Shown here piece by piece: positions 23,797 to 39,900 of a stretch of DNA of 52,943 nt. The DNA is from Lachnospiraceae bacterium (GTDB lineage: Bacteria; Bacillota; Clostridia; Lachnospirales; Lachnospiraceae). A program made the translations under genes and the position numbers. The DNA lies in assembly GCA_016288005.1 (NCBI GenBank), contig JAEEXY010000014.1:1-52943 (forward strand), read 5' to 3'. Below the pieces are notes generated by a model that saw only the letters and a program-made list of their open reading frames with translations, was not told the origin of the DNA and did no database searches. Positions within the stretch are counted from its first letter, which is position 1; each line of letters begins with the position of its first letter.

Positions 23797-24483
23797 TCAT
23801 ATCCCATATACGGTTTTGATCCTGTCCAGTTTTCTGCCGATCGGATCGGCCAGCGCCAACAGGAATATCACATTGGAGACTGCGTAAACGGCCGTCATCG
23901 GAACCGCAGTCCCGACAGCCGCGAGATACAGTTTGATATCGAAACCGTTGTTGTACCAGAGCACGGTCCATATATCCATTATAAATGAAAAGATCACGCC
24001 GGCCAGCGCTCCGTAAACGAGGAGCAGTATTTTGCTCTTTTTCAGCGGTTTTGCGGCTAAGCCCGCTATCAGTCCGATCAGTCCCCACGCGAACATCTGG
24101 AACGGTGTCCACGGTCCCTGTCCCCAGAAGAAATTCGATATCACCGCGGAGATGGCCCCAACAAGGAACCCCGCTTCTCCTCCGAGGTAGATTCCCGCGA
24201 TCACCGTTACGGCCGTCACGGGTTTTATCAGCGGTATAAAGCGTCCCACCACCGACATGACGGTCAGCACTACGACCAGCACCATCCGTCTGGTACCTAT
24301 CTTCCTCTGCTCGAATCCGCTTATGAACAGCACGATCGCGAGGATCGTTATCACAAGCGAGATATAGGCGTACATCTTATCCTCAAACACATACACGCCT
24401 ATGAGCACCAGCGCCGGTATCACTATAAACGGTATTATTATCCGCAATGCGGCACGCAGTCTGCTGCTTTTTATAACTATCAT
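23797..24483 (-). CDS. ECF transporter S component, CblT-like (corrinoid specificity)
   Basis: A 228-residue integral membrane protein with about six helices. The stretch GGEAGFLVGAISAVISNFFW followed by GQGPWTPFQMFAWGLIGLIAG resembles the ECF S component predicted to take up cobalamin (CblT/CbrT type). It would bind corrinoid and be toppled by the EcfA/EcfT energy module, whose genes lie directly upstream. Assignment to cobalamin rests mainly on the riboswitch at the head of the operon. It is the last gene of that operon; a palindromic repeat follows. Confidence 0.78.
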   Translation of the reverse strand: MIVIKSSRLRAALRIIIPFIVIPALVLIGVYVFEDKMYAYISLVITILAIVLFISGFEQRKIGTRRMVLVVVLTVMSVVGRFIPLIKPVTAVTVIAGIYLGGEAGFLVGAISAVISNFFWGQGPWTPFQMFAWGLIGLIAGLAAKPLKKSKILLLVYGALAGVIFSFIMDIWTVLWYNNGFDIKLYLAAVGTAVPMTAVYAVSNVIFLLALADPIGRKLDRIKTVYGI

Positions 24484-24548: not shown

Positions 24549-26192
24549 TTAAAACTTCTCACCGGACTCTGCATCAAGAGGGTTCAGCCCGCACAGTCTC
24601 ACGACATCCTCCGCAGTCACAACGCCATCGTAGTATCCGCGCGTCATGCGGTTTGCAGCCGTTGTATAGAAATAATTGCCCGAGAAAAATGCTTTCGCCC
24701 TGTCGCACGAGGTTATCTCACCGTTAAACAGCAGGGCACACCGGTCTGCCAGCCGTGCCGCAAATTCCACATCATGCGTGACGATAACAACAGTCACACC
24801 GCTTTCGGCCAGACTTTTAAGCTTCTCTCCCATCTGCTCCGCCGCATATACATCGATGCCCTTGGTCGGCTCATCGAGTATCAGCAGGCGAGGCTCTGTC
24901 CGCAGCACTATGTCCAGTGCCGCCAGCTGCTGCTCTCCGCCCGACAGGTCGTAAGGATGCCGCCCGTTATAGCTGTCCTCGGTAAAAACCGTCTGCACAT
25001 CCTGCGGCAGCATGGCGACGCAATTGCGGTAGAGCTCCTGCCCGCTGTAATCCCGGATCCTCTTTCCGAACACCCTGATCTGTCCCGAATACGGCCTGAT
25101 AAGGCCTGCAGCCGCACTCACTGCAGTTGATTTGCCCGCGCCGTTTCCGCCGAGTATGCAGAATATCTCCCCGCGGCGGACCTTCAGGTCCATCCCGCGC
25201 AGGACATCCCTGCCGTCCCGCGAATAACGCAGATACACATCCCTGAATTCGAGCGCGATATCATCGTCGGCGAGCCGGTCGGGCGCCTCTGTCTCTGAGC
25301 GCACATCATTGCCGAAATTATCCTCTATATATTTCCTGCCCTCGCAGACATCGAGCGGCAGAGTCGTGCAGTAAGCGGCCGCATCACCGCTTTTGCCGTC
25401 ATTCGATATCCCATTTTTTATCAGATCATGCGTCGCAGCATATATCCTCACCGCTGCCGGCATGGATCTGAGCAGCCTCGCATTACCGATAAGTTTCTCC
25501 ACGCATTCACGCGTATTCCCGAATGCGACGGTCCTGCCCTCTTCGAGCACCAGCAGCTTATCCGATACCGGGATGATGTCCTCGAGCCTGTGCTCAACTA
25601 TTACCACGGTAAGCGCCAGTTCCCTGTTGAGCTTCACCACCGTCGCTATGAAATTCGATGCGGCGATCGGGTCGAGCTGGGCTGTGGGCTCATCAAGCAC
25701 CAGTATCTCGGGCTGCATGACCATCACCGCCGCGAGGTTCAGCAGCTGCTTCTGGCCTCCGGAGAGTTCGTCGGTGCTCATCTCAAACCATGACTCTATG
25801 CCAAAGTACCCCGCGATCTCGGAAACCCTCCGCCTGATCTCCTTTTGGGGCACCGCAAGGTTTTCGAGCCCGAAGGCCAGCTCATGCCAGACCTTGTCGG
25901 TAACTATCTGCTGCTCGGGTCTCTGCATCACGAATCCGACCGTCGACGCGGACTCACGCTCATCCATTTCCTCGGGGTCCCTGCCGCAGACCAGTATCCG
26001 CCCGCTCTTTGTCCCGACGGGTGTCAGCTCGCGCTTGAGCATTTTCAAAAGCGTTGATTTTCCGCTGCCGGTAGCGCCGCAGACACAGAGCATGTCTCCC
26101 CTCTCCAGGGAAAAGCTCACCCCGTCGAGCGCTTTTTTATCCGGGTTTATTCGGTACGAGAATTCAAGATCCCCGACTCTAAGTATCTCCAT
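24549..26192 (-). CDS. ECF transporter double ATPase (EcfA1-EcfA2 fused)
   Basis: A 547-residue protein with two ABC ATPase domains in one chain, replacing the separate EcfA1 and EcfA2 subunits. Domain 1 (1 to about 230) has Walker A GATGSGKS, signature LSGGQKQL, Walker B ILVLDEPTAQ and the H-loop IVEHRLED. Domain 2 (about 315-530) has GGNGAGKS, LSGGEQQL, LLILDEPTKG and VTHDVEF. Both sites look catalytically complete. GAGGAGAAG precedes the ATG, which lies 45 nt inside the ecfT reading frame. Confidence 0.9.
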   Translation of the reverse strand: MEILRVGDLEFSYRINPDKKALDGVSFSLERGDMLCVCGATGSGKSTLLKMLKRELTPVGTKSGRILVCGRDPEEMDERESASTVGFVMQRPEQQIVTDKVWHELAFGLENLAVPQKEIRRRVSEIAGYFGIESWFEMSTDELSGGQKQLLNLAAVMVMQPEILVLDEPTAQLDPIAASNFIATVVKLNRELALTVVIVEHRLEDIIPVSDKLLVLEEGRTVAFGNTRECVEKLIGNARLLRSMPAAVRIYAATHDLIKNGISNDGKSGDAAAYCTTLPLDVCEGRKYIEDNFGNDVRSETEAPDRLADDDIALEFRDVYLRYSRDGRDVLRGMDLKVRRGEIFCILGGNGAGKSTAVSAAAGLIRPYSGQIRVFGKRIRDYSGQELYRNCVAMLPQDVQTVFTEDSYNGRHPYDLSGGEQQLAALDIVLRTEPRLLILDEPTKGIDVYAAEQMGEKLKSLAESGVTVVIVTHDVEFAARLADRCALLFNGEITSCDRAKAFFSGNYFYTTAANRMTRGYYDGVVTAEDVVRLCGLNPLDAESGEKF

Positions 26193-27043
26193 TTGATCTT
26201 CTCCTCAAGCTCATTCATCACAGGCAGCAGGCACATCAGCCCGTACAGCACGTAACACACGATCGCCGCGGGTGTGTGCGCGATCCCGCTCATCTGCGGA
26301 TAATAAGAGAACCTGACCGCATCGGTCGCGATAAAAAAGGCCACTGTTCCCGCAAATACCGCCAGCACCGCGAGCATCACCGCATCTGCTTTTCTGAACC
26401 GGTATACGGAAAACGATGTGCGCCGCCCGGAGCCGTATCCGCGCGCGCTCATGCTGTCCGCGGTCACTATCCCGTTTTCGAGTCCCCATGTAGTCATCAT
26501 CGAGAATATCTTCAGCTTCATGCGGATCGTGTCGATCGCGTTTTCTCCGTTATACCGCCCCAGCGCGCGCTGCGTGAGCTCCGTTTTCACCGCCTGTCTG
26601 TGGAAAAGCGGAATAAATCTGAAGGTCATCGTGATCAGCAGCGCCAGCTTCGGCGACGCAGAACCCATGACACAGAGCATTTTGTCGCCCGTCATGATCC
26701 GCGTGAACACCCTCATGATCATGAGGATCGCGCAGATCAGCGTTCCCATGCCCACGCCGTAGAGTACCGCTTCGAACGTTACCGGATTGTCGTTCATCAC
26801 GAACAGCACGGTGACCCCGTTGTGGCTGAAAACCGGATTGGCCGCGGAAGTCACGACAAATATGAAAACCGCATATATGAAAAATCTGCCGCAGCCCTCG
26901 CGTGCCAGGACAAGCGTCATGAGTATCCCGCTCACGAGAGCGATCGCGATCATCACAGGATTGAACGCGAACATCGATATCACGGTCACGGTCAGAAAAT
27001 ATACAAACAAAAATATGGGATTATAGCTCTCAAAAGCTTTCAT
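26147..27043 (-). CDS. ecfT: ECF transporter transmembrane component EcfT
   Basis: A 298-residue membrane protein with about five to six helices that couples the ATPases to the S component. The cytosolic coupling-helix motif with an Ala-Arg-Gly signature is seen in SMSARGYGSGRR, and a second conserved stretch is LITMTFRFIPLF. ATG 27043 overlaps the TGA of the preceding gene as ATGA and has no Shine-Dalgarno of its own, which points to translational coupling with the transcobalamin-like protein. A longer frame upstream lies inside that gene and is rejected. Confidence 0.88.
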   Translation of the reverse strand: MKAFESYNPIFLFVYFLTVTVISMFAFNPVMIAIALVSGILMTLVLAREGCGRFFIYAVFIFVVTSAANPVFSHNGVTVLFVMNDNPVTFEAVLYGVGMGTLICAILMIMRVFTRIMTGDKMLCVMGSASPKLALLITMTFRFIPLFHRQAVKTELTQRALGRYNGENAIDTIRMKLKIFSMMTTWGLENGIVTADSMSARGYGSGRRTSFSVYRFRKADAVMLAVLAVFAGTVAFFIATDAVRFSYYPQMSGIAHTPAAIVCYVLYGLMCLLPVMNELEEKIKWRYLESGILNSRTE

Positions 27044-28776
27044 TGCTGTCCGATATCCCTTCCTATCTCGCGCGTGTACAGCCACGCGACATCGTCTCCG
27101 TCATGCAGAATATAGTCTCCGCAGCCGACTGAGGGTGCTTCGCCGTTTACATAATACATCCATCCCGAGAGCTCGCCGTACTCATACTCATAAATATGGT
27201 TGATGCCGCTGATATAGTATGCTCCGTGCGCCCCCACCGATGTCTTTTTATTCTCGAGGTGTATCTCATTCTCACGCACAGCGCCGATCAGCAGATCGTA
27301 AACGCTCTCTCCCTCGACGATACCATACTCTGTTTTCCCAAGGATCACGCCGTCCGTGGGGATGAACTCTGACGCCTCCCCTACTATGGAGTCGCAGCGT
27401 ATCGTAAATGTCACTGTCCCGACGATCTCGGCCTCTGCGGTACCTGTCCCCGAATAATAGCTCTCCTTCGAGCGGATGTCGGTCTTATATACGACCAGGA
27501 CCGCCAGCAGCGCAATGACCGCAGCAAAGATAAAGTTTTTGTAATTGCGCTTTTTGAAGATAAACAGCAGCGCGCAGGCCAATGCGAAAAGACCGGCGAT
27601 CACGGCATATGCGACAGGTTTGTAGTTTACGGCTGCAGCCTGCTCTGCCGGGGGACTGTCTATGCTGCCGGGCAACGTGTTGTTCCCGGTGACAGGCACC
27701 GAGTCTTTGTCATCCCCTATACTGTCCCCGGTGACAGGCACCAACGTACCATCGGTGCCTGCCACCGTGTCTTTACTGCCGCCATCTGCCGTGCCTCCGG
27801 TGCCCGGCACCATATTGTCTGTCATGTTCCCGGTGCCTGTCACCTCTCCCAGCACATAGTACGGTCCTTCGCCTGCCTTCATCGTCACATAGGCTTCCAT
27901 TGCGGCAAAAACCTGCATTGTCGCCGTTGCATTGCTCTCTCCGCCCGCTATGTGGGCATAGGTCCCGTCCGGCAGCCTGTATGCGGCCAGTCCGTCAAAT
28001 ATCGTATTTCCGTTTTTTATGAAGCGTTCATCCTCTGCGGCATCGATCCCGAGTGACGAAAGCGCTATCAATACCTGCGCGGTGCTCTCCGCGTTTGCGG
28101 CACCGAAGCCGGAGTATCCGCCGTCAGCGTTCTGCTTCCGGGACAGCAGCTCCACGGCCTCATCAGTGTCCCCCGCCGTAGTATCTGTGATACTCCCTGC
28201 GAGTGCCTGAACGACCATCGCGGTCACATCCACATCCGAGTATTCTCCGATCACGGACCAGCCGCCGTCATCATGACGCAGTTCGAGTATGTCGGATATT
28301 ATTTTCTCCGGCGGATATATCGCGCTCTCATAACCGTTATTATACAGATGGAGCCCGTAGACCAGACTCATGATGCCCTGCGCGCCGACTGCCTCATTGA
28401 CGGTATCGGTAATGTAGGGGTTATCGCGGTCGGCGACCGTGAGACACAGCGCGTATTTGAGTCGCGTCGTAGCTGCCCGAACCTCGTTTTCCGCCAGATA
28501 CCGCGAAAGTGCCGCAGCATATCCCGTAAGATCGTGTCCGCCTTCCTTTGCGAGCGCATAGGCATAGGTTTCCGCAGTAACTCCTGCGTTCGGGACCAGA
28601 TCCTTTTCGATCCATTCGTCCGTATTCGCCGCGCCGCATTCCTGCATTTTAAACATGACAATACCGCTGATGACGCTGTTCGCGTCATCAACGGCATCCG
28701 CTCTGCAATATTGTGTACCGGCTCCTGCCGCCATCATCAGGCAGGCCAGTATCAATGCCAGAATCTTAGATCTCAT
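27040..28776 (-). CDS. Transcobalamin/intrinsic-factor-like membrane protein (toroid + DUF4430)
   Basis: A 578-residue surface protein. A signal peptide (MRSKILALILACLMMAAGAG) precedes an alpha/alpha-toroid region (about 30-310) with terpene-cyclase-like motifs HDDGGWSVIG and QNADGGYSGFG. A Gly/Thr/Val-rich linker (about 310-382) follows, then two membrane helices (about 386-406 and 415-435) joined by KKRNYKN, and a C-terminal DUF4430 domain (about 475-575) with GKTEYGIVEGESVYDLLIGA, SGWMYYVNG, SVGCGDYILHDGDDVAW. Animal intrinsic factor and transcobalamin have the same order, an alpha/alpha barrel then a beta domain related to DUF4430, and hold cobalamin between them. Both domains would face outside. 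With the riboswitch and ECF genes, corrinoid capture is the natural inference. Confidence 0.75.
   Translation of the reverse strand: MRSKILALILACLMMAAGAGTQYCRADAVDDANSVISGIVMFKMQECGAANTDEWIEKDLVPNAGVTAETYAYALAKEGGHDLTGYAAALSRYLAENEVRAATTRLKYALCLTVADRDNPYITDTVNEAVGAQGIMSLVYGLHLYNNGYESAIYPPEKIISDILELRHDDGGWSVIGEYSDVDVTAMVVQALAGSITDTTAGDTDEAVELLSRKQNADGGYSGFGAANAESTAQVLIALSSLGIDAAEDERFIKNGNTIFDGLAAYRLPDGTYAHIAGGESNATATMQVFAAMEAYVTMKAGEGPYYVLGEVTGTGNMTDNMVPGTGGTADGGSKDTVAGTDGTLVPVTGDSIGDDKDSVPVTGNNTLPGSIDSPPAEQAAAVNYKPVAYAVIAGLFALACALLFIFKKRNYKNFIFAAVIALLAVLVVYKTDIRSKESYYSGTGTAEAEIVGTVTFTIRCDSIVGEASEFIPTDGVILGKTEYGIVEGESVYDLLIGAVRENEIHLENKKTSVGAHGAYYISGINHIYEYEYGELSGWMYYVNGEAPSVGCGDYILHDGDDVAWLYTREIGRDIGQQ
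27685..27844. repeat. Five GGTGnCnGnCACC palindromic units inside the linker of the transcobalamin-like gene
   Basis: Near-palindromic words of 14-17 bp occur at 27685-27703, 27726-27742, 27753-27767, 27797-27811 and 27829-27844, for example CCGGTGACAGGCACC and CGGTGCCTGCCACCG. They encode repeated VPVTG/VPGTG-like residues in the linker between the toroid and the membrane helices. Similar GGTGCC palindromes are common dispersed repeats in Clostridia; an origin by repeat expansion is inference. Confidence 0.6.
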
Positions 28777-29575
28777 TGCTTCTCTTTCTCTCATTTGCTG
28801 TAATAGCGCAGCCTGCAGCGATCAGGAGCATGCCGAGTGCGGCATACAGAGATACGGGTGCAGTACCAGTCTTGGGCAGACCTGCCGCCGCAACGCTTGC
28901 AACGCATACGGGCGGAACCAGCGTCATGGTGTCAGACTTTGCGCTGATAACATATGTTCCGGACTTGTCAAGCTTAACGACCGCTTTGCCCTCGGCATCG
29001 GTCACAACGCCTGCGTCCTCGCCGTTAACGGTGATCTTTGCGCCTTCTACGGGGCTGACAACCTGATTCCAGTCGGCATCGTAGCCGAGCGAGCTGAGTG
29101 TGAGGCTGATCTCATCGCCTGCGGATACGCTCTTTGCCGAGCTGTCAAACCAGCTGTAAGCATCCGACCAGCCTACGAGGTCTGTATATACAAATGCATA
29201 TACATGATCACCTGCGTTAACGGGATCGGTAAGGCTCCATGCGGATGCGTCGTTAACATAGTAGCCGTAAGAACCGCCGTTCTCAACGCCCCAGAGCTTT
29301 GTAAGGCTCAGGCCGTAGTCACCGAGCGCCGAACCGTAGCCTGCCTCGGCTCCGCCCTCGAAAAAGCTCTCGTGAGCCGCATAAAGTACATCATTTATAG
29401 TTATCGCACCGTCTCCGTCGATGTCGGAAGCGGTAACTTCCGCTCTTGCAACAGCCAGTTTTCCGTTTTCATCCGCGATCGTAACATAAGCCTTAACGTC
29501 TTCGGCCGAAACCGAGATCGCTGCCGATGAAAGGACCAGAACCGCCGCAAGAATCATAGCTGCAAATCTTTTCAT
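28766..29575 (-). CDS. Sortase-anchored surface protein with dockerin-like EF loop and DUF4430-like domain
   Basis: A 269-residue cell-wall protein. It has a signal peptide (1-24), an EF-hand/dockerin-like loop DIDGDGAITIND (51-62), then a domain with YGLSLTKLWGVENGGSYGYYVNDAS and NAGDHVYAFVYTD (about 60-140) that follows the layout of DUF4430/transcobalamin-C domains. An Ig-like segment (about 150-225) and a sorting signal follow: LPKTG at 233, a hydrophobic stretch and a basic tail (ANERKRSNEI). It overlaps the preceding gene by ATGA and the following gene by 11 nt. Placed right after the riboswitch, it may be the outermost corrinoid-binding layer; binding is not shown. Confidence 0.75.
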   Translation of the reverse strand: MKRFAAMILAAVLVLSSAAISVSAEDVKAYVTIADENGKLAVARAEVTASDIDGDGAITINDVLYAAHESFFEGGAEAGYGSALGDYGLSLTKLWGVENGGSYGYYVNDASAWSLTDPVNAGDHVYAFVYTDLVGWSDAYSWFDSSAKSVSAGDEISLTLSSLGYDADWNQVVSPVEGAKITVNGEDAGVVTDAEGKAVVKLDKSGTYVISAKSDTMTLVPPVCVASVAAAGLPKTGTAPVSLYAALGMLLIAAGCAITANERKRSNEI

Positions 29576-29874
29576 TGATCCATAACCTCTTTCCTTAATG
29601 ATTTTTGCTGTTTCTTTGCCTCGGTACGGCGCCTCTTGGATCTGATACGTTTTTCGACCGTTTTCAGTTTTTTCTCATCCCCGCGCGGTTCCTTTAAGCC
29701 CGCAGCCTCCAAAGCTCTCGGCCACGGCCCGAAAAAAGCCTTGATAGCCACTACCTCACGCTCCGAAAAATCAGCGCGCTTCGGGAAACGCTCCTCGCCC
29801 CCGGTCCGCAATTCATCCGCTTTCGCCCTAAGCAAACCGATGCAGAGCTCCTTTGTGAACTTATCTCCGTCCAT
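29572..29874 (-). CDS. Small HNH-repeat (homing-endonuclease-associated repeat) protein
   Basis: A 100-residue basic protein. ATG 29874 follows GGAGG at 7 nt and is preferred over an upstream in-frame start that would fall in the riboswitch leader. The central part RFPKRADFSEREVVAIKAFF followed by GPWPRALEAAGL resembles the homing-endonuclease-associated repeat, a small DNA-binding module. The tail is strongly basic (KRIRSKRRRTEAKKQQ). There is no nuclease domain. It is the first gene after the cobalamin riboswitch and is coupled to the next gene by ATGA, so its expression should respond to cobalamin. Its role is unknown; nucleic acid binding is inferred. Confidence 0.7.
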   Translation of the reverse strand: MDGDKFTKELCIGLLRAKADELRTGGEERFPKRADFSEREVVAIKAFFGPWPRALEAAGLKEPRGDEKKLKTVEKRIRSKRRRTEAKKQQKSLRKEVMDQ

Positions 29875-29931
29875 TTCAAAACCTCCGCGGTATAGTGTCT
29901 TATGCAGGCTGCCGGCGATCACTCCCCGGAC

Positions 29932-29968
29932 AAAAATAAAACACCTGTCATTAAAAATATGACAGATG
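29932..29968 (-). terminator. Intrinsic terminator between the cobalamin riboswitch and its operon
   Basis: On the minus strand CATCTGTCAT-ATTTTTA-ATGACAGGTG forms a 10-bp stem with one G-U pair, followed by TTTTATTTTT. It lies about 70 nt past the riboswitch core and about 60 nt before the first gene, so it is a good candidate for the riboswitch expression platform. Confidence 0.8.
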
Positions 29969-30039
29969 CTTTTTCCCACACAAAACCAATCCCGTACCGA
30001 CCACGGGATTAAACGGTTGCACTTTCATATCCAAAATGT

Positions 30040-30176
30040 TCATACCGAACACGCCCCGGCAAGTATTCTGACTTATGGGCAGCGCCCAATCACAGTAATG
30101 ATGGTTGCGACGGAATCTCACCGAACTTCCCTCTGATCCGCTCATGCGGAACCGGAGCATGCATATTCAATTAACA
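30040..30176 (-). ncRNA. Cobalamin riboswitch
   Basis: On the minus strand the conserved blocks occur in order: GGGAAGTTCGGTGAGATTCCG, GCAACC, TTACTGTGA, GGGCGCTGCCC and the B12 box AAGTCAGAATACTTGCC (30074-30058). This matches the cobalamin riboswitch family. Ends are approximate. A second hairpin (AATCCCGT/ACGGGATT, 29988-30012) and then the terminator follow, so bound cobalamin probably stops transcription before the six-gene ECF operon. The whole 370-nt gap between the regulator gene and the HNH-repeat gene is promoter, riboswitch and terminator. Confidence 0.93.
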
Positions 30177-30198
30177 GCGGTGCTCACGCACCAAAATC

Positions 30199-30227
30199 AT
30201 TATAATTGCAGTTATATGAAAATACAA
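30199..30227 (-). promoter_or_regulatory. Promoter of the cobalamin riboswitch operon
   Basis: On the minus strand TTGTAT (30227-30222), a 17-nt spacer and TATAAT (30204-30199). It lies 15 nt after the stop of the AraC-type regulator gene. Confidence 0.78.
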
Positions 30228-30242
30228 CCGCTCATACGCACT

Positions 30243-31811
30243 TTAATATCTTTTTGAATTCTGCTCCCTGTATTCGGTCGCCGACATGCCTTCGGCTTTT
30301 CTGAAAACAGTGGCAAAATACCCATCGCTCGCAAATCCGACGAGCCCGGCGATGTCCTTGACCTTTATGTTGCTGTTTTTCAGCAGCTCCCGTGCGCGCT
30401 CGAGCCTGTAGTTCTTGATAAAGCTGTTGATCGACTCGCCCTTTAGCCTCCTGAACATCGCGCTCAGATAGTTCGGGGACAGGAAAACCCTCTGTGCTAT
30501 GTACTCCATGGTGAGCGAGGGATTCTTATACTCGGAGCGGATGATCGCGATAACTTTGTCAACGACCATCGTGCTGTCGTTCGCATAGCTGCTCTTTTTC
30601 TTTTTCTCGGCCTTTTCGAGGATGGCGAGCACGCTCTCCTCAATGGACCATATATCGGGAACAGTCAGTATGAACTTCGCGGCCTCCATGCTCTCGTTGT
30701 TGGTGAGGACATCGGAATACTGCGACAGCCTGCTGAGAATCTCGATAAAGATATGGCGCACATAGATGTTGCTCATGCTGCCTTCCTGCTCTATGCGGCT
30801 CACGGTCCTCCGGATGCCCTCAGCGGCCTTTTTAAACTCCCTGAACCTTATGTCCTCATAAACCTGCATCAGGAGAGTCTCCACGTTCTCATCGGCGCTG
30901 CCCTTCTGCGTGTAGGCAACCCTGTCGACGAGCACATCGCCCTCTTTTAGGAAAAACCGGTTTTCCTCGAGCACGTCGAATTTCTTATATGCCGAGAGCA
31001 GGTCCACTCCGTTCTGGGAGGGAATGCTTATCAGCACGGTGCTGTCACATCCGAGCTCCAGCCTGATGCCTCTCCTCAGCTTTTCGCCGAATGCCCGCAG
31101 GTTGCGTTCGTACGGGATCTTGTCGGTAACGGTAAAGAGCAGCTCACGGTTTCTCGATATGTTCAGGCAGAAAAACTCTGCGTACTTCGATTTGAGCAGC
31201 ATCTGCATGATCCTGTTCTCGGCGCCCGAGAGCGACGACCCGGATGACAGAATGAGTATCAGCGTTATATATCTGCCGTTGAATTCCCTGGCCTTGAACT
31301 CCTTTGCCTCCTCGGACAGCTCGGCATCGGCGGCCTGTATCAGTTCCTTTAAGATGCTTACGGAACGGAAGGAATCGTTTTCGAGCTTTAAGAGTTTGCG
31401 CTCCGCCGCGATATCTCTTTTATGCTCCAGCTCCTCTATGAGAGCCGCGGTATTCTGCTTTAGTTTTTCCTCATCGGCGGGATCCGCTATCACCGGAGAA
31501 ACTCCGAAAAGCACCGGCTCGGAAAGTGCCGCGATATCCTGTTTCCTGCAGTAGAGGACCAAAGTGCAGTATCTGTCGTTTGCCCTGCATTTCTTCACGA
31601 AGTCATCATGATAAGACCGCAGCATATCAATGTCTGCGATCATAACCTCAGGCTTTCTTCTTGTCTGTTCCAGCAGCGCGTTATGAGCGTTTTTCGCCTC
31701 AAATGCCTCAAACCGCCCGGCATCTGCGAGCCAGTCCGCTATCTCTTTCCGCATATCGCTGTCCGCCGAACAGATCAGAGCCGTAAACAGATCCTCGGTG
31801 TTCTTTTTCAT
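30243..31811 (-). CDS. Receiver-like/AraC-type transcription regulator
   Basis: A 522-residue DNA-binding regulator. An N-terminal receiver-like domain (about 1-120) has an acidic pair in CSADSD and a possible phospho-acceptor in ADIDML, but the usual late Lys is not clear. A long middle region (about 130-410) matches the YesN-type layout. The C-terminal AraC domain (about 425-522) has two helix-turn-helix motifs (LTMEYIAQRVFLSPNYLSAM and VKDIAGLVGFASDGYFATVF). No histidine kinase gene is adjacent. Its position before three large secreted-protein genes suggests that it controls them. Start choice is unusual: ATG 31811 is separated from GGAGGAAGG by a hairpin, while GTG 31823 lies inside the stem. 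Confidence 0.85.
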   Translation of the reverse strand: MKKNTEDLFTALICSADSDMRKEIADWLADAGRFEAFEAKNAHNALLEQTRRKPEVMIADIDMLRSYHDDFVKKCRANDRYCTLVLYCRKQDIAALSEPVLFGVSPVIADPADEEKLKQNTAALIEELEHKRDIAAERKLLKLENDSFRSVSILKELIQAADAELSEEAKEFKAREFNGRYITLILILSSGSSLSGAENRIMQMLLKSKYAEFFCLNISRNRELLFTVTDKIPYERNLRAFGEKLRRGIRLELGCDSTVLISIPSQNGVDLLSAYKKFDVLEENRFFLKEGDVLVDRVAYTQKGSADENVETLLMQVYEDIRFREFKKAAEGIRRTVSRIEQEGSMSNIYVRHIFIEILSRLSQYSDVLTNNESMEAAKFILTVPDIWSIEESVLAILEKAEKKKKSSYANDSTMVVDKVIAIIRSEYKNPSLTMEYIAQRVFLSPNYLSAMFRRLKGESINSFIKNYRLERARELLKNSNIKVKDIAGLVGFASDGYFATVFRKAEGMSATEYREQNSKRY

Positions 31812-31822
31812 CGCTTTGCGCA

Positions 31823-31850
31823 CGGTTCCTTATCGGAACCGCCTTCCTCC
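31823..31850 (-). promoter_or_regulatory. Hairpin between Shine-Dalgarno and start of the AraC-type gene
   Basis: The leader reads GGAGGAAG then GCGGTTCC-GATAA-GGAACCGT, an 8-bp stem with one G-U pair, then GCGCAAAGCG and ATG 31811. Folded, the hairpin would bring the strong Shine-Dalgarno close to the ATG; unfolded, the spacing is about 30 nt. Confidence 0.45.
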
Positions 31851-31999: not shown

Positions 32000-34900
32000 T
32001 TATTTTACCGTAACGGTTGTCTCAAACTTCTTAACCGTTCCGTCAGGAAGCGTTACCTTAACGGTGATCTTAGCCTTGCCCTTCTTAACAGCTGTTACGG
32101 TACCCTTCTTGCTGATCTTAACGATCTTCTTGTCACTCGAGGAATATGTAACCTTTGTGCCCTTAAGCTCGGGAGGAAGTACAAGACCCATAGCCTTCTT
32201 CTTTGTCTTGCCTGCCTTTACGCTGACTTTCTCCTTAACGCTGATCTGGTCGTCCAGAGTGATGACCGTCTTCGAAGATGCCTTCTTCGATACGAGAACA
32301 TACTCACCCTCAGCATATGCTGTAAACTCAACATATCCGTCGGCATCAACCCTGATCTCGGTATCGACCGTCTCAAGGAGCTTCTTATTCTCTCTGTCAA
32401 CCTTGTAGAGGTAGAGAGTCCTGCCGGCCTTGCCGATCTTCTTGGAACTTACCTTAACCTTGACGGTCTTGGGCTCTCCGGACTTAACATCCTCAACTTC
32501 AACATCAAAGCCTGTGAGCTTCTTGCCGGTAAACTCCTTATCCTTCGAGAAGTACTCAGCCTCGATCTCTTCTGCCTCGGCTGCCGCACCTTCGGGGGTC
32601 TCGGGGTTGTCGATATCAACCTGCTCGGAAGGTGTACCTTCGGGTGTTCCGGGATTGTCAATATCTACCTGTCCGGGAGTATTGCCGCTGTCTCCGGGTT
32701 CCTCGTCATCATCAACGATAGGAGGAATGATGATCGGTACGGTGCCTGTTCCGCCGGGTGCAACCGGAACATCGATCTCTTCGAACTCGATCCTTCCGCC
32801 TACAGGCAGAGTGCCTGCTGTAAGACCGCCGATGTAATCCTTATTGCTGATAATGATGGGTGCGCTCTTTGCGGTAATGCTGAAATCGATAGTTGTCTCG
32901 CCCTTAAAGAACGCGGATGCATTGCTGAGTGTAATGTGCAGCGTGTAGTTACCGATCTCCTTCGGGAGCTTATCGGTCCTGTAGTACTGGCTGCCGTTTG
33001 CGAGGGTACCTGTTACGGTGTAAACGATCTTGTCGTAATCCGTGAACTGGATCTCCTCTTCTTCGGTACCGGGTATAACCGCAAGAATATCATCTGCCTC
33101 AAGTCTGGCGGCCTTGCCGTCGTACTCCTTGCTCTCTACGTAAACGCCTGTGAACTCTACCGGCTTCTTGTCCAGGTCGGGCTCATGATTGCCATCCTTG
33201 ATAACCGTGAAGGTATCGAACAGATCACTCTTTCCGCCTGAGAAGCAGTAGGTATCGTATGTCATTACGTCGCCGCTGAATCTGATCAGAGCGAAGAACT
33301 GCTTAGCGTATTTCAGACCGCACTCAATACCGTTGATCGGGCTGACTGCCAGTCCGTCAAGGATGCACTGATCGGGCATCTGATAACGTGCCTCGGCGTT
33401 GTCCTTCGATATCTCAAGAGACTTGGTGCCGCCGTAGTTAATGGTGATGTAATGTGTGCCTTCGGGCTCAACGTTCCAGATCCTGTCACCTTCATACTCG
33501 ATCTCGGGTGTGAAAGGATTGTCGTAGGATACATCGCCGTGACCCTTGAAGGTCTCACGCTCGTTGCTCTGGTATCCCGAGAACTGCTGACCGTTCAGAT
33601 CCTTGCCGTAGTAGTAAGGAACCGTTCTGGTGTATGCATGGTCATGTCCCTGGAGAACAAGGTCAACCTTGTACTTTGCAAGGAGCGGTGTAATATTCGC
33701 ACGCAGGCAGCGCGATCCGCCGTCCATCGTGTGATAACCTACCGACATCATGCCTGCATGGGTCAGGTAAACGATCCACTTGATCTTGCCTTCCTCGCGA
33801 AGCTGTGCCGCCTTTTCGAGCTGAGACACGATCCAGTTGTACTGCTCGTGATAATCGGCCTTTGAGTCGTACTCACCGTTAGCGGGATGGCTGTCAAGGT
33901 TACCCGACTCGTTCGAGTTCGAACCGAGCAGGAACACATTGCCTACCTGGTAGCTGTAGCATGCGCCGGTCCTGTGAGTATTGTGCTTTCCGTCAGTACA
34001 ATAATCCTGGAAATCAATATCGTACATCGACCAGAAAATATCTTCGGTTACGTCGTGGTTGCCCGCAACGGGAACGATAACGGTGTTCATCAGATCGTCC
34101 GCGTCGAAATCCTGTGACATGTTGAACTCATCGATGAATACCTTGCCGTCATGGCACTCGTTGGTGATATCACCTGTATCAATGGTGCCGACATGTGCCG
34201 AACCGGTCTTCCCGAGCTTCTTATAAGCCTCGCGGAGCAGGTTCTCGAACTGTCTGTACTCAGACTCCGAAGTAGCCTGAGGGTCTGTTACATGAATAAA
34301 TGTGAAATCATCAAGCTCGGAATCGATAGTCATCGTGCCGGGTCTTGACCAGCCGGAGGTCTCGCTTCCGACTCTGTAGTAGTAAACGTTCTTGTCGAGA
34401 AGGTTCTCGATATGAGCCTTATGGCAGGTGTAAACCGTAGCGTCCTTTGAGCTGTTGGTAAACGATTTGCAGAAGTAGTCGGGAATCGTTACGACCTTAT
34501 CCGTATCCCACCAGAACTCCGAGATATCTTCTACGTCGTTCTTGTTGATCACCTGAAGCACCGAATCAGTTGCTTCATTATTGCTTGTTCTCCACGCTAC
34601 GCCGCGGGAGAAGATGTCATTGTAGTAAGTAACCGCGATACCCTGAACATTCGCGCTGATCTCGTAAGGGCAAGCAGGCTTTGCGGGCTCTGAGTTATCG
34701 ACAACATCGGTAAGGATGTACATGCCCTTGATGATGATCGCCGAACCCTGTGTTACGTACACATTTTCAGCGTCTTCCGCATTTGCCTTGCCGCGCAGCG
34801 CGTAAAGTGTCTGTCCTTCGAGGGAATCGGGGATATTGAATATCGCCTTGTTATCAATGGTATTTACATACGTAAGATAAGGCGTATCCTCGAATGCGTC

Positions 34901-36934
34901 CTTGCCTGTTACCTGAGGCTGAAGGCTGATGTTCTCGAGCTCAAGATCGTTGATCAGTTCGCGGTCGATGATGAGCTTGTCGCCCTTCTTTAATACGACG
35001 CCGTTGCCTTCGTTGATGTAGTATCTGTTGCGGATCTTGGCTTTGCTTGCCTTTTCAAGCTTGAAGCCGACCTCGGGCTGAGCCGCGGGGATAGCCAGAT
35101 CACAGCCGCTCTCAACGAAGATATTGTCCTTGTTGAGCTTTACGTAACCACTGATGGTTCCGCTCAGATCACCTACTGCATATTCCTGTCCTACAGGATT
35201 TGCGTTGGGATCGATCTCGGTCGATGCAGCCTTGACATCGGTAAGGAAATATACATTCTTAAAGGTTACCCATGCGCCGCGAGGTACAATGTCAGCCCCA
35301 TTATCTTTGATCCTTATGGAATATATCTTTCCGTCTTCATAGTTTGCCGGAACACTGTATACCGCTAGACCGTCTTTGATCTCATCGACAGAGAGCTCGG
35401 CAATGTCTTCATATCCGCCGTCTGCAACGATCTGAGGCCAGAAATGAAGCATGGAAAGATCGAAGTCTCCGGACGCTTCATACTCGATGACAAACTTGTC
35501 GCCCTCTGCTATGCCAGCTCCGTCTTTTTCGTTCACATAGAACCTGTTTCTAATCTTGCTTCCGTCAGCTGTCTTTTCAAACTTTACACCGCCTTCGGGC
35601 TGCTCTGCCGCAGGATTCATATCGGGCTGACCCGATTCCATGATCATATTGGTCGTATCAGCCTTAACGATACCGCTGATGGTACCTTCGATCTTGCCGA
35701 CCTTTTTCTTAGCGCCGACCACAAAGCCTTCTGCAGGATCTACAGGATCTACAGGATCTACGGGATCGACGGGCTCGGTTACTTCCTCGATATCGGTCAG
35801 GAAATAAGCGTTCTTGATCGTTAATGTTGTGCCTTCGGTATAATTAACACTGTCACCCTTGAGGCGTACATTATACAGATCGCTCGATTCTGTTTTAGCC
35901 GCCACGGAGAATACAGCTGCGCCGTCGCTTTCGTTCAGAACGCTGAATTCAAAGTCGTTGTCCCATCCGCCTTCAGCCTTCGTTCCCTGAATGGTCAACT
36001 GTGAGAAGCTAAAATTACCTGTTGACTCGTATTCGATCACAAAACGAATGTCGGAGCTGATCGATACTGCAGCACCGGTAGCTGCTTCGGCAGTGGTGAA
36101 ATTTTTGATCCTGTTCCTGATACTGCCGCTTCCGGGATAAGCAAAGCGCACACCGTCTTCAGGCTGCTCTTCGGCATATTTGAAATTACCGCTTTCTACA
36201 TAGTAGTTATCCTTATCAGGCTCCGAGAAAGCCACTACTGTGCCGCGGATCTTGCCGGCAGTCCTCTTCTCTTGGAGCTGAATGCCTTCGTAAACAGGAG
36301 GGTTCTCTGCGGGTGCCGACTTAAGGTCGCTCACAAAGTAAGCCTTTTTGATGGTCAGTGTGGAACCGTCGGGGAACTTACCTGCGTCTGCCTTGATACG
36401 GATGTCATACAGCTTATCTTCCGCGTCGGAACTTGCTGAAACAGTATATACAGCAACGCCGTTGGAAATGCCGATGCTGCTGAACTTATTCTTTACCGTC
36501 CAGCCGTTTGCGGAGTTTGTTCCTTCAAGGCTGAGCTTTGTGAGGTCGAAATCAGCCGATGCTTCATACTCAAGGTAGAACTGAGTACCTTCGGTGATCA
36601 CAACGCCCTCACCGCCGTTAAAGTTCTGGATCCTGTCTCTTACCTTACCGCCATGGCCGTTAGCGGAGTTCACAACCAGCTTAACGCCGTCTTCGGGCTG
36701 CTCTTCGGCAAAGATAAGATCTGTATCATTATCTTCCAGTTTGATATTTGCGGGGATCATCTCCGCAACGCCGCTTACTGTACCGATCAGGCCGCCGGGC
36801 AGATCTATCTCCTGTCCGACCGCTGCAGCGGTTTCAGCCGCGTTTGCCTTGACATTGCTGTAAGGGACGCCCGGAAGGAGCATCGCCACTGCAAGTATCA
36901 GGGCAATAAACCTTTTAATATTACCTCTTTTCAT
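32000..36934 (-). CDS. Giant secreted calcineurin-like phosphatase with four N-terminal modules and a Big_2 domain
   Basis: A 1644-residue secreted protein; ATG 36934 follows AAGGAG and gives a signal peptide (MKRGNIKRFIALILAVAMLL). Four modules of about 170 residues follow (about 35-215, 220-385, 402-580, 580-750), each with a GTxxG/GTVV start and an RxR(I/F/Y) motif (VRDRIQNF, IRNRIKNF, IRNRFYVNE, IRNRYYINE). A purple-acid-phosphatase-like N-domain (about 750-875) leads to a metallophosphoesterase (about 880-1160) with TDPQ, GDITN, GNHD, THAGM and GHDHAYTRT; the first motif is DxQ rather than DxH. A Big-type domain, an acidic Gly/Pro linker and a C-terminal Big_2 domain (last 85 residues) follow. 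No LPXTG is seen. Surface phosphate scavenging is inferred. Confidence 0.85.
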   Translation of the reverse strand: MKRGNIKRFIALILAVAMLLPGVPYSNVKANAAETAAAVGQEIDLPGGLIGTVSGVAEMIPANIKLEDNDTDLIFAEEQPEDGVKLVVNSANGHGGKVRDRIQNFNGGEGVVITEGTQFYLEYEASADFDLTKLSLEGTNSANGWTVKNKFSSIGISNGVAVYTVSASSDAEDKLYDIRIKADAGKFPDGSTLTIKKAYFVSDLKSAPAENPPVYEGIQLQEKRTAGKIRGTVVAFSEPDKDNYYVESGNFKYAEEQPEDGVRFAYPGSGSIRNRIKNFTTAEAATGAAVSISSDIRFVIEYESTGNFSFSQLTIQGTKAEGGWDNDFEFSVLNESDGAAVFSVAAKTESSDLYNVRLKGDSVNYTEGTTLTIKNAYFLTDIEEVTEPVDPVDPVDPVDPAEGFVVGAKKKVGKIEGTISGIVKADTTNMIMESGQPDMNPAAEQPEGGVKFEKTADGSKIRNRFYVNEKDGAGIAEGDKFVIEYEASGDFDLSMLHFWPQIVADGGYEDIAELSVDEIKDGLAVYSVPANYEDGKIYSIRIKDNGADIVPRGAWVTFKNVYFLTDVKAASTEIDPNANPVGQEYAVGDLSGTISGYVKLNKDNIFVESGCDLAIPAAQPEVGFKLEKASKAKIRNRYYINEGNGVVLKKGDKLIIDRELINDLELENISLQPQVTGKDAFEDTPYLTYVNTIDNKAIFNIPDSLEGQTLYALRGKANAEDAENVYVTQGSAIIIKGMYILTDVVDNSEPAKPACPYEISANVQGIAVTYYNDIFSRGVAWRTSNNEATDSVLQVINKNDVEDISEFWWDTDKVVTIPDYFCKSFTNSSKDATVYTCHKAHIENLLDKNVYYYRVGSETSGWSRPGTMTIDSELDDFTFIHVTDPQATSESEYRQFENLLREAYKKLGKTGSAHVGTIDTGDITNECHDGKVFIDEFNMSQDFDADDLMNTVIVPVAGNHDVTEDIFWSMYDIDFQDYCTDGKHNTHRTGACYSYQVGNVFLLGSNSNESGNLDSHPANGEYDSKADYHEQYNWIVSQLEKAAQLREEGKIKWIVYLTHAGMMSVGYHTMDGGSRCLRANITPLLAKYKVDLVLQGHDHAYTRTVPYYYGKDLNGQQFSGYQSNERETFKGHGDVSYDNPFTPEIEYEGDRIWNVEPEGTHYITINYGGTKSLEISKDNAEARYQMPDQCILDGLAVSPINGIECGLKYAKQFFALIRFSGDVMTYDTYCFSGGKSDLFDTFTVIKDGNHEPDLDKKPVEFTGVYVESKEYDGKAARLEADDILAVIPGTEEEEIQFTDYDKIVYTVTGTLANGSQYYRTDKLPKEIGNYTLHITLSNASAFFKGETTIDFSITAKSAPIIISNKDYIGGLTAGTLPVGGRIEFEEIDVPVAPGGTGTVPIIIPPIVDDDEEPGDSGNTPGQVDIDNPGTPEGTPSEQVDIDNPETPEGAAAEAEEIEAEYFSKDKEFTGKKLTGFDVEVEDVKSGEPKTVKVKVSSKKIGKAGRTLYLYKVDRENKKLLETVDTEIRVDADGYVEFTAYAEGEYVLVSKKASSKTVITLDDQISVKEKVSVKAGKTKKKAMGLVLPPELKGTKVTYSSSDKKIVKISKKGTVTAVKKGKAKITVKVTLPDGTVKKFETTVTVK
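35734..35769. repeat. Four tandem 9-bp units encoding Val-Asp-Pro repeats
   Basis: The plus strand reads CAGGATCTA three times and then CGGGATCGA, giving VDPVDPVDPVDP on the coding strand. It forms the linker between modules 2 and 3 of the phosphatase. The nearly identical first three copies suggest recent slippage, so the copy number may vary between strains. Confidence 0.8.
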
Positions 36935-36947
36935 GTTTGTCTCCTTA

Positions 36948-39900
36948 TCAGTTAATCTTTCTGTCAAGTACTACATAGGTTCCTGCCCTGTTAACCGTGA
37001 ATGAGAGCTTTCCGCTGCCGTCCGTCGATGCTGAAACATCAACTTCTGCAAGGCTGTTGTCATTCTTGTTGTAACGGTATACGTAAACCGTGGTGCCGGG
37101 CGTGATCGTCGACTGCCAGATCGTAACCTTTGAAGGCTTCTTTGCCGTGAACAGGAGTCCGTCGGCATCGCCGGTCAGTAATCTGAGATCTTCGTCAACC
37201 GTGTCCTTGGTGAACTCGGAGAGTCCGACCGTGATGTAGTAGAGACCGTATCTGAGATCCTTGTTGCCGCCTTCCATCGCAAGATGTACTGCAGGCTTCA
37301 TGGTATCGGGATCAAGGATCGCAACCGCTACCGTGTAAATGCCGTTTGCCAGATCGTCAGGAATAGCTACCGAAGCAGACATGGAGATCGAATCTCCGGG
37401 CATCCACTTTCTGATATCATCCTTTGTAACGGCTCTGGCTGCTACATTGCCGTTCACATCGAGGAGCGAAACCTCTACGGGCCAGCTGTAGTAGAAAGGA
37501 GCAACACCTGTATTTCTCCAGTTAAGTCTTACTTTAAGCTTTCCGCCGGCCGCAACCGAAGGAGTATAGCTCGCGCTCTTGACGCTTAAGCGGTAACCCA
37601 TGATCCTCTGGAGATAATGGATATTTGCTTCATAAGTGTAAGCATCGAAATCACCGTCCAGAAGATCGCAGGGCGAGCAGGGGCCGAGCCACGAAGTATG
37701 GCTGTCCTTGATGAATGAGATCGTATCCATGATGGAATCGTCATCAACAGCTCTTAAAACATCTCCGTGAGAGAACTCACCGCCGGAGTAATTCGTCTTC
37801 CAGAAATCGGGCATCCTCGAGTCTGCCACGTCGGTAGGCTTGGGATTGATCATGTTGTTGGTGTTGCCGTTCTCGATAGCACCGAGGAACATATCCGTGC
37901 CCTCGGGATCTCCGAACATATCGTTGAAGAGTCCGAATCCGTTCTTGGCTGCGAAAGGATAAGGATAGCGGATACCGATCTTAACCGTCTTGAAGTGATC
38001 GGTATATGCCTTTGCGTACAGACCTGCGGTCTCGGGATCCGGGAACTCACCGGAACCGAAATTGTACTCGGTAAACGAGCCTGCCTCAGGCCAGGTGTGG
38101 AACTCGCCCCAGTGTCCTAAGGAACCTACCTGCGCGAAGCCTGTGATCGAACCGTCGTCAAACTTTGCAGCGAATGCTTCGATCATCTTGTCATGACGGT
38201 CGATGAGCATCTCTGAATAATAGTTGGGTGAGAAGCCGGCTCCGCCGAGGACGTCTGCGCTCGGCCAGTTGTAGAAGGTACCTGCGTTCTCATACTTCCC
38301 TGCAAGTACTTCGTTGCACAGATCTGCTACCAGCCATGCGGGGATATCCGCGCGGTAGTTTCCGGTCGCGAAGAGCTCTTTGATCTTGCGCTCGGTAACA
38401 ACACCGTTCTCTGTCAGGTTATTCTTTGCGATGAATGCCTTGTCGACAACCTCGCCGTAAGTAACCTTTCTCTTTGAACCCGTAAGAGGTTCGGGAGTAT
38501 CCATAACGAATCTGAAGTTAACTCTTACGCCGTTTTCCTTCCAGTATTCGAGCTGATACTTATCATCAACGTATGACCAGTCGAATACGCCTTTTACGGT
38601 CTCGATGTCATCCCATGTTACGGGGAAGTAGGTCAGGTTGAAGTCATAACCAATATTGGGAATGTCGTTTGCGCTTACGTTAGCCCATGCCGTCCATCCC
38701 TTGTAAGGGTTGTTGTATACGTCAAAGTTCTCGTAAGGATATACATAGCCGTCAGCGTAGTACATATCAACTTCGCCGGCAACGTTCATGTAGCGCTTCG
38801 AAGGAACCTTGACCGTCTTGTCCTTTGCCAGTGCCGCGATCTTGATGTTCTCGGGGCTGCCGATATCCTCCAGATAGAGTCTCATCTCGATCGAGTCTTT
38901 TCCGTAAGTGATGTCGGCCGACTTGATCTTATTGCCGATCCTGTTCTTCGACTTAACGGTGTAGAGATTGCCGTTCATTACAACGTAATCGGCGTTTGCA
39001 AAACCGAAGTAGCTGTAACCGGTGCTGTCGTTTACATTGATAACGAATCTTGTCTTTGTATCAAGATCTCCGTTCTCCGAAAGGAGCATCGTGTAGAGCT
39101 TGTACTGTGACTTTGTTGCGTAGAGATTGTATACATTCTCCTCAGCGGTGTTGGTAACAACGTTGGGGATAGCGTTCCAGTCGGCGAACTTGCCGTCGAT
39201 GGTGATATCGAAGCTCGTGCCGTACTTGGGTACGCGTGAATAGCGTGTGCCTTCTCCGAACGCCTTTGTAACGCCGGGGAATGTGGTCCTTACCGTAGCG
39301 TCTCTCTGTACCGATACAAGAATGTCATCGATAGCCAGTGAGGAAACGGCAGCCATCTTCGCGATGGGAACCCTGAACTCCATGCAGAATCTGTTGGTGC
39401 CTTCGATCTGCTTTGTAACCTTCCAGTCAAGATTGTCGCCGCAGCCGCCTGCCGAATGTGAGAATCCGAAGCCTGCTCCGTTGCCTGTCTTATAAGAGAA
39501 CTCCTGGTTTGTGATGTACCAGTCCTGAAGAAGGAAGTCGCCGCCTGCCTCAGTATAGATTTCCTTGTATGCGTAACCCGTGGAAGGATTGCCGTCAGAG
39601 TCGATATAAAGGTTTGTCGAATATGAATGGTCGCTCTCGATCTCGCTCGCATCTACGTCAACATAAGTCATAACGTAGAGATAATCCTTTGTGCGTGCCG
39701 CCCAGATATCGCCCATCGAGCCTGTACCTACGCCGACCTTGAACTCATCGGTCCATTCGGAAGGATCGCCGTCAGCGGTGATCGCGGGTCCGTTGCCTGC
39801 CAGAGGCGTGGTAACCGTAAGCAGCTCAGTCTCGATATTGGGAAGAAGCGCGCCGGCGCCGTCATCGCAGGCCACTCCGAACTTTTCGGCACCGCCCGCG

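Follow-up and report, generated by a model that had tools for sequence, protein, structure and literature searches.

Bacterial proteins that fuse an alpha/alpha toroid to an SLBB domain were described in 2007 by Burroughs et al. (PMC1796856), along with forms that carry anchors, an additional SLBB protein and CbiO/CbiQ operons; in the available text of that paper they are predicted to scavenge vitamin B12, and a transfer to animals is proposed. The deposited structure 6FNP is that of ECF-CbrT, presented in the accessible part of its source as a characterised B12 transporter of the energy-coupling factor (ECF) type (PMC5997447). For BtuH, a B12 domain without known structural homologs has been reported, and in Eubacterium siraeum one btuH homologue is located close to an ECF-like transporter (available text of PMC8941943). 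For numerous human gut genomes, identifying the systems that transport B12 has been called an open problem (PMC6593275, part available). We analysed a 52,943-nucleotide stretch of DNA from a Lachnospiraceae bacterium (assembly GCA_016288005.1, contig JAEEXY010000014.1, positions 1-52,943), called the window below. Its minus strand carries, behind a cobalamin riboswitch, six genes in the order HNH_repeat, LPX, TOR, EcfT-like, EcfAA' and S, where TOR encodes a toroid-SLBB protein with two membrane helices between its domains. This operon is most probably a B12-repressed system for corrinoid capture at the cell surface and import. How Gram-positive gut bacteria import B12 is not settled, and the locus provides a complete, testable set made of a switch, two putative catchers, an S-component and a motor.

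Domain structure and topology of TOR

27040-28776, minus strand: TOR, with signal peptide, alpha/alpha toroid, linker, membrane hairpin and transcobalamin-like SLBB (DUF4430) domain; reading frame open from 28794
27868-28701, minus strand: TOR alpha/alpha toroid, residues 26-303 (structure model and family profile)
27475-27615, minus strand: TOR membrane hairpin, helices 388-406 and 416-434 flanking a basic loop (hydropathy)
27043-27435, minus strand: TOR SLBB/DUF4430 beta domain, residues 448-578 (PF14478, E 2.6e-16; model strands 453-568)

The signal peptide, toroid motifs, two membrane helices and DUF4430 domain that the original prediction had read in TOR were all confirmed, PF14478 reaching 60.3 bits against a curated cut-off of 23.8. 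The Pfam toroid models stay below their cut-off (21.3 versus 26.5 bits), and the toroid assignment is thus based on the structure model and the family profile. In this model, the toroid and the beta domain align jointly to intrinsic factor within one chain, as anticipated, their exact pose being uncertain. The SLBB part is modelled with a helix (492-502), strands 507-511 and 520-525, then 538-543.

Relatives of TOR were collected by a scan of named genomes, the best 80 of 344 encoding places being retained. The TOR alignment comprises 75 rows, the window and 74 of these 80 loci (L071, L080, L084, L088, L094 and L128 being left out). Residues G534 and G538 are present in all 75 rows and G489, after strand 2, in 63; their match to the two conserved glycines of the superfamily is our own reading of the columns. 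Exactly two helices separate the domains in every row, with an intervening loop of 6-12 residues and a net charge of +2 to +5, as judged by hydropathy. The linker preceding this hairpin varies from 36 to 142 residues, and an N-terminal hydrophobic segment is found in 74 of the 75 rows. Since the loop is basic, the positive-inside rule would place it in the cytoplasm, and both the toroid and the SLBB domain outside, at the level of a simple hydropathy prediction. The hairpin with both domains outside had been considered an arrangement not known from elsewhere: the topology stands as a prediction, while its uniqueness to this genome is contradicted by its presence throughout the alignment.

Transcobalamin places a histidine on cobalt, and His275 of TOR, invariant in the 75 rows and retained in four of five separate toroids, is offered only as a candidate cobalamin-contact residue. 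The TOR linker (27680-27750) also contains repeated VPVTG peptides that look like sortase signals, and VPVTGD occurs at the C-terminus of the LPX of one relative (L068). These peptides are possibly relics of an anchored ancestor, or possibly due to chance.

Promoter, riboswitch and gene order

30199-30227, minus strand: promoter-like TTGTAT-17-TATAAT, with a perfect TATAAT (30204-30199) 17 nt after TTGTAT (30227-30222); found by eye
30041-30171, minus strand: cobalamin riboswitch aptamer, short type (RF00174, 47.6 bits, gathering score 31.5, E 6.7e-09)
29938-29972, minus strand: terminator-like hairpin with U-rich tail (z -5.4 against shuffles)

The original prediction of a riboswitch with promoter and terminator ahead of six coupled genes is borne out by these three elements and by the gene order. 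The promoter is absent from the list of the promoter scan because its -35 element agrees at only three of six positions. The aptamer (30171-30041) is predicted to fold as a closed junction, and Rfam finds no other Cobalamin match anywhere in the 3.3 Mb assembly. The terminator-like hairpin (29972-29938) is likely the expression platform of the riboswitch; a second hairpin (30012-29986) lies between it and the aptamer. The reading frames of the first five genes overlap, and S starts 65 nt beyond EcfAA'. The EcfAA' and S genes fall outside the interval 26147-30227 given with the prediction.

The predicted ECF transporter and LPX

26147-27043, minus strand: EcfT-like membrane protein (six hydrophobic segments, place before EcfAA', kept gene order)
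24549-26192, minus strand: fused two-ATPase EcfAA' (three Pfam ABC_tran stretches; cbiO model TIGR01166 above cut-off, TIGR04520 and TIGR04521 just below)
23797-24483, minus strand: CbrT-like S-component (PF12822, 41.2 versus 30.7 bits, and PF07155, both above cut-off)
28766-29575, minus strand: LPX, a predicted secreted protein with transcobalamin-type beta domain (about 24-137; structure model), Ig-like domain (about 139-231), LPKTG sorting signal and membrane helix (LPxTG family model)

A profile of the S-component was built from 29 sequences, namely the window, 26 of 71 from the named loci and two from order relatives. Its best match in the PDB is 6fnp_A (E 2.3e-20), the next chain being at 0.0019, and the window protein alone also matches 6fnp_A (E 8.6e-09). 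Because the S-component is CbrT-like, the link between TOR and the transporter is firmer than the original prediction could tell.

The C-terminus of LPX consists of LPKTG, a helix and a basic tail (TIGR01167, 18.2 versus 15.9 bits; PF00746 below cut-off, 15.4 versus 20), and 39 of the 58 LPX rows in the alignment carry xPxTG close to the C-terminus. Its model gives the locus a second transcobalamin-type beta domain, a feature missing from the original prediction, with a helix (60-71), strands 80-85 and 88-94, then 103-107. This domain is visible in the predicted structure only: for LPX, neither PF14478 (E <= 1) nor any PDB sequence is matched, and hhalign against the SLBB profile gives a probability of 2.8%. 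Foldseek places Ig-type chains on top for LPX, with no transcobalamin chain among the best 50 rows; when VIA-align was run over Foldseek's 1000 best chains, transcobalamin and haptocorrin moved to the top. Three relatives (G006, G016 and G019; loci L150, L151 and L158) have a separate riboswitch before an LPX-like gene, away from ECF genes, which suggests that LPX, under B12 control, can work as a surface protein on its own.

Conservation of the locus

Matches extend along the fused TOR in 79 of the 80 loci, the exception, L071, being cut by a contig end. The order LPX, TOR, EcfT, EcfA, S is kept in 62 of the 80, unmatched genes in between being ignored. A model of the short-type riboswitch, R1, was built from 12 sequences and run over all 80 loci. 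At E <= 1 it matches 64 sites (63 of them at E <= 0.01), invariably on the strand of TOR and spread over 62 loci; in 57 loci a match lies no more than 2.5 kb upstream of TOR, at a median distance of 1,044 bases. Once the nine loci that supply or duplicate R1 training sequences are removed, a match is still found in 53/71. Rfam, applied to the genomes behind 40 of the 80 loci, detects a Cobalamin match in 32, located at the R1/TOR site in 21; the sites contributed by R1 in addition are weak. Within the genus, TOR is present in 23 of 24 genomes; in 11 of the 23, the TOR contig also has an Rfam match upstream of the gene (two below the gathering score). Class-wide, PF14478 occurs in 172 and the Cobalamin riboswitch in 302 of 391 genomes. 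In two loci, TOR is directly followed by another match to the short riboswitch (L125, 11701-11831; L143, 11642-11771). Long and short riboswitches, 16 in all, were also aligned, but this alignment was discarded because it contained too many gaps.

The genome contains one clear B12-binding protein, of the MetH type, with pterin-binding and homocysteine methyltransferase parts, and no match to CbiC. Among 61 relatives, TOR is found in 32 and CbiC in 14, never both (Fisher 3.4e-06, a value inflated because the genomes are related). Outside the genus, CbiC occurs in none of nine TOR genomes versus 14 of 28 others (Fisher 0.007). The homologues do lie in B12-type loci, the opposite of the refuting outcome named with the original prediction, and are absent from cbiC genomes.

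The riboswitch regions of nine relatives were examined (G028 and G036 left out). In four TOR-less genomes of the same family (G025, G027, G031 and G032; loci L152, L154, L155 and L156), the riboswitch is followed by BtuF-like and FecCD genes, with an ABC ATPase adjoining by eye. The region of G034 contains cobalt-transporter-like genes by eye, and that of G026 is cut by a contig end. In L152 and L154, the first gene after the riboswitch encodes a lipoprotein-like CbiK cobalt chelatase (PF06180), which would sit outside the membrane. The genome analysed here has one FecCD gene, adjoined by eye by genes for a binding protein and an ATPase.

Possible origin of the membrane hairpin

Nine relatives outside the genus have a TOR match, and eight of them possess a stand-alone SLBB gene, which adjoins a toroid gene in G030, G035, G040 and G052. 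Some of these relatives also encode large two-domain proteins, and G047 has only such a protein. In G030 and G035, which belong to the same family, the C-terminus of the toroid protein is made up of a sortase-like signal, a membrane helix and a basic tail, and the adjoining SLBB gene encodes a protein that starts with a membrane helix. If two genes of this kind were joined, the product would have the layout of TOR (toroid, helix, basic loop, helix, SLBB), and the hairpin may therefore have arisen by fusion of neighbouring toroid and SLBB genes. A tree was built from 38 SLBB domains, a 39th being too short to include; on it, the 30 fused and eight separate rows require two changes versus 7.4 in shuffles, none of 500 shuffles being as low. 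This clustering of the fused rows is compatible with a single fusion; fused forms are present in both Lachnospiraceae and Oscillospiraceae. The same parts are anchored otherwise in order relatives: L058 (6316-9405), L063 and L064 encode very large toroid and DUF4430 surface proteins, with S-layer homology domains matched in L058 and similar ones seen by eye in L063 and L064.

Other features near the operon

29572-29874, minus strand: small HNH_repeat protein (PF18780, E 2.5e-07; ATG at 29874 by eye, reading frame open from 29979)

This homing-endonuclease-associated repeat protein, encoded between the riboswitch and LPX, has BLAST matches in several relative loci. The riboswitch is preceded at a short distance, on its own strand, by an AraC-type regulator with a weak receiver-domain match (30243-31823), which has an upstream match also in G005 and G020. 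Further away, 32000-36967 of the window encodes an exported-looking protein of 1655 residues, with a metallophosphoesterase-like part recognised by eye and no NCBIfam match at E <= 0.1.

Proposed mechanism and alternative explanations

Anchored in the cell wall by sortase, LPX would present its transcobalamin-type beta domain as the first catcher. TOR would be exported by means of its signal peptide and held by the hairpin, the short basic loop in the cytoplasm and both toroid and SLBB domain outside. By analogy with intrinsic factor, these two domains may close on one corrinoid, directly above the CbrT-like S-component, which would take the ligand over; LPX and TOR would in this way divide the labour. 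EcfT and EcfAA' would then use ATP to power import. In the presence of ample cobalamin, the riboswitch would permit the terminator to form and switch the operon off, repression being the presumed direction of control. A more specific version, plausible at somewhat below even chances, makes TOR an integral extra ECF subunit, whose hairpin clamp docks beside EcfT and S, takes the corrinoid from LPX and loads CbrT, the hairpin having come from the fusion of a sortase-tailed toroid gene with an N-anchored SLBB gene.

Several observations weigh against this capture-and-import reading. No R1 match is found in 18 of the 80 loci; five of these (L097, L120, L137, L139 and L141) have an Rfam riboswitch upstream on the same contig, and 13 stay without any riboswitch match, some having little upstream sequence. 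In twelve of the 32 TOR genomes Rfam detects no Cobalamin riboswitch, R1 later matching the TOR contig in three (L072, L073 and L101). Several Ruminococcus genomes show a strong Rfam match elsewhere and a weak R1 match (33-39 bits) at TOR, and the riboswitch detected in G016 sits at another gene. The mutual exclusion of TOR and cbiC partly reflects shared descent, 24 of the 61 genomes belonging to one genus. The EcfT of the window has no family-model match above cut-off; of six homologues scanned, four exceed the CbiQ (PF02361) cut-off, one, 90% identical, reaches 23.7 versus 25 bits, and one has no match. As for TOR, Foldseek TM-scores against intrinsic factor and transcobalamin are moderate (0.49-0.63 by target), with an rmsd of 9-15 Å, which makes the modelled pose of the two domains a tentative one. 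Profiles of whole TOR, of its SLBB domain and of its toroid retrieve no intrinsic factor or transcobalamin chain at E <= 10; lacking this sequence homology, TOR is likened to these proteins in its working and is not classed as a member of their family. By sequence, its toroid profile resembles squalene-hopene cyclase (E 9e-20).

TOR could be regarded as a membrane-held enzyme, for example with a terpene cyclase-like toroid, that shares the operon by chance. This is very improbable: in DxDD, which we take to be the catalytic motif of squalene-hopene and other type II terpene cyclases, the last Asp is replaced by V, A or S in all 75 rows, the Pfam toroid models remain sub-threshold, and an enzyme would leave the SLBB domain, the B12 riboswitch, the ECF operon and the cbiC exclusion unexplained. 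Surface anchoring and the separate riboswitch-LPX units would fit LPX and TOR acting as adhesins or as sensors of surface corrinoids that do not feed the transporter. We give hardly any credence to this idea in view of the gene order shared with the ECF genes by 62 of the 80 loci, and of the absence of a signalling domain among the families detected in TOR and LPX. As regards the ligand, the system might mainly capture incomplete or other corrinoids (cobinamide, pseudo-B12, other gut cobamides) and less cobalamin. The riboswitch and the CbrT-like S-component point to corrinoids in general, the beta-hairpin residues vary among relatives, and members of both known B12 importer families also import cobinamide, according to the available part of a study that cites the CbrT paper (PMC6593275). 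Such a preference is nevertheless unlikely, since no observed feature favours a precursor over the complete cofactor.

Comparison with known systems

The animal proteins intrinsic factor, transcobalamin and haptocorrin (2pmv, 2bb5, 4kki) share with TOR the same predicted fold, an N-terminal toroid followed by a C-terminal beta domain. TOR differs from them by its hairpin, its linker of variable length, the lack of a detectable sequence match and the importer encoded alongside. The animal family consists of soluble secreted carriers, in contrast to the two predicted membrane helices of all TOR rows. In Bacteroides, BtuG is reportedly a surface B12 catcher serving an importer. BtuH likewise plays this part in the same bacteria, from the available text of PMC8941943.

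The closest likeness is to the proteins of Burroughs et al. (PMC1796856), which, in the text available, combine toroid and SLBB domains, carry signal peptides and, for some, Gram-positive anchors, and come with a second SLBB protein and CbiO/CbiQ operons, in hosts usually without B12 synthesis and predicted to scavenge B12. The original prediction of a bacterial intrinsic-factor-like receptor feeding an ECF transporter is supported by the model and the B12-type loci, and is not new, its core having been published in 2007. The available text of that paper mentions neither a hairpin between the domains nor a CbrT-type S-component; 'riboswitch' does not occur in it, and the two occurrences of 'transmembrane' are in the methods and in a reference. 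No later study of bacterial toroid-SLBB proteins came up in a non-exhaustive search of the open-access literature, subscription papers and preprints being outside its scope. The kind is already known as a prediction; we found no description of the variant seen here, in which a hairpin holds the protein and a CbrT-type S-component accompanies it under B12 control.

The S-component is related by sequence to that of ECF-CbrT of Lactobacillus delbrueckii (6FNP), which itself binds the substrate according to the accessible part of PMC5997447, whereas the operon described here adds two surface proteins. Should TOR indeed load CbrT, there would be a form of ECF transporter that depends on a binding protein, here an extracellular one.
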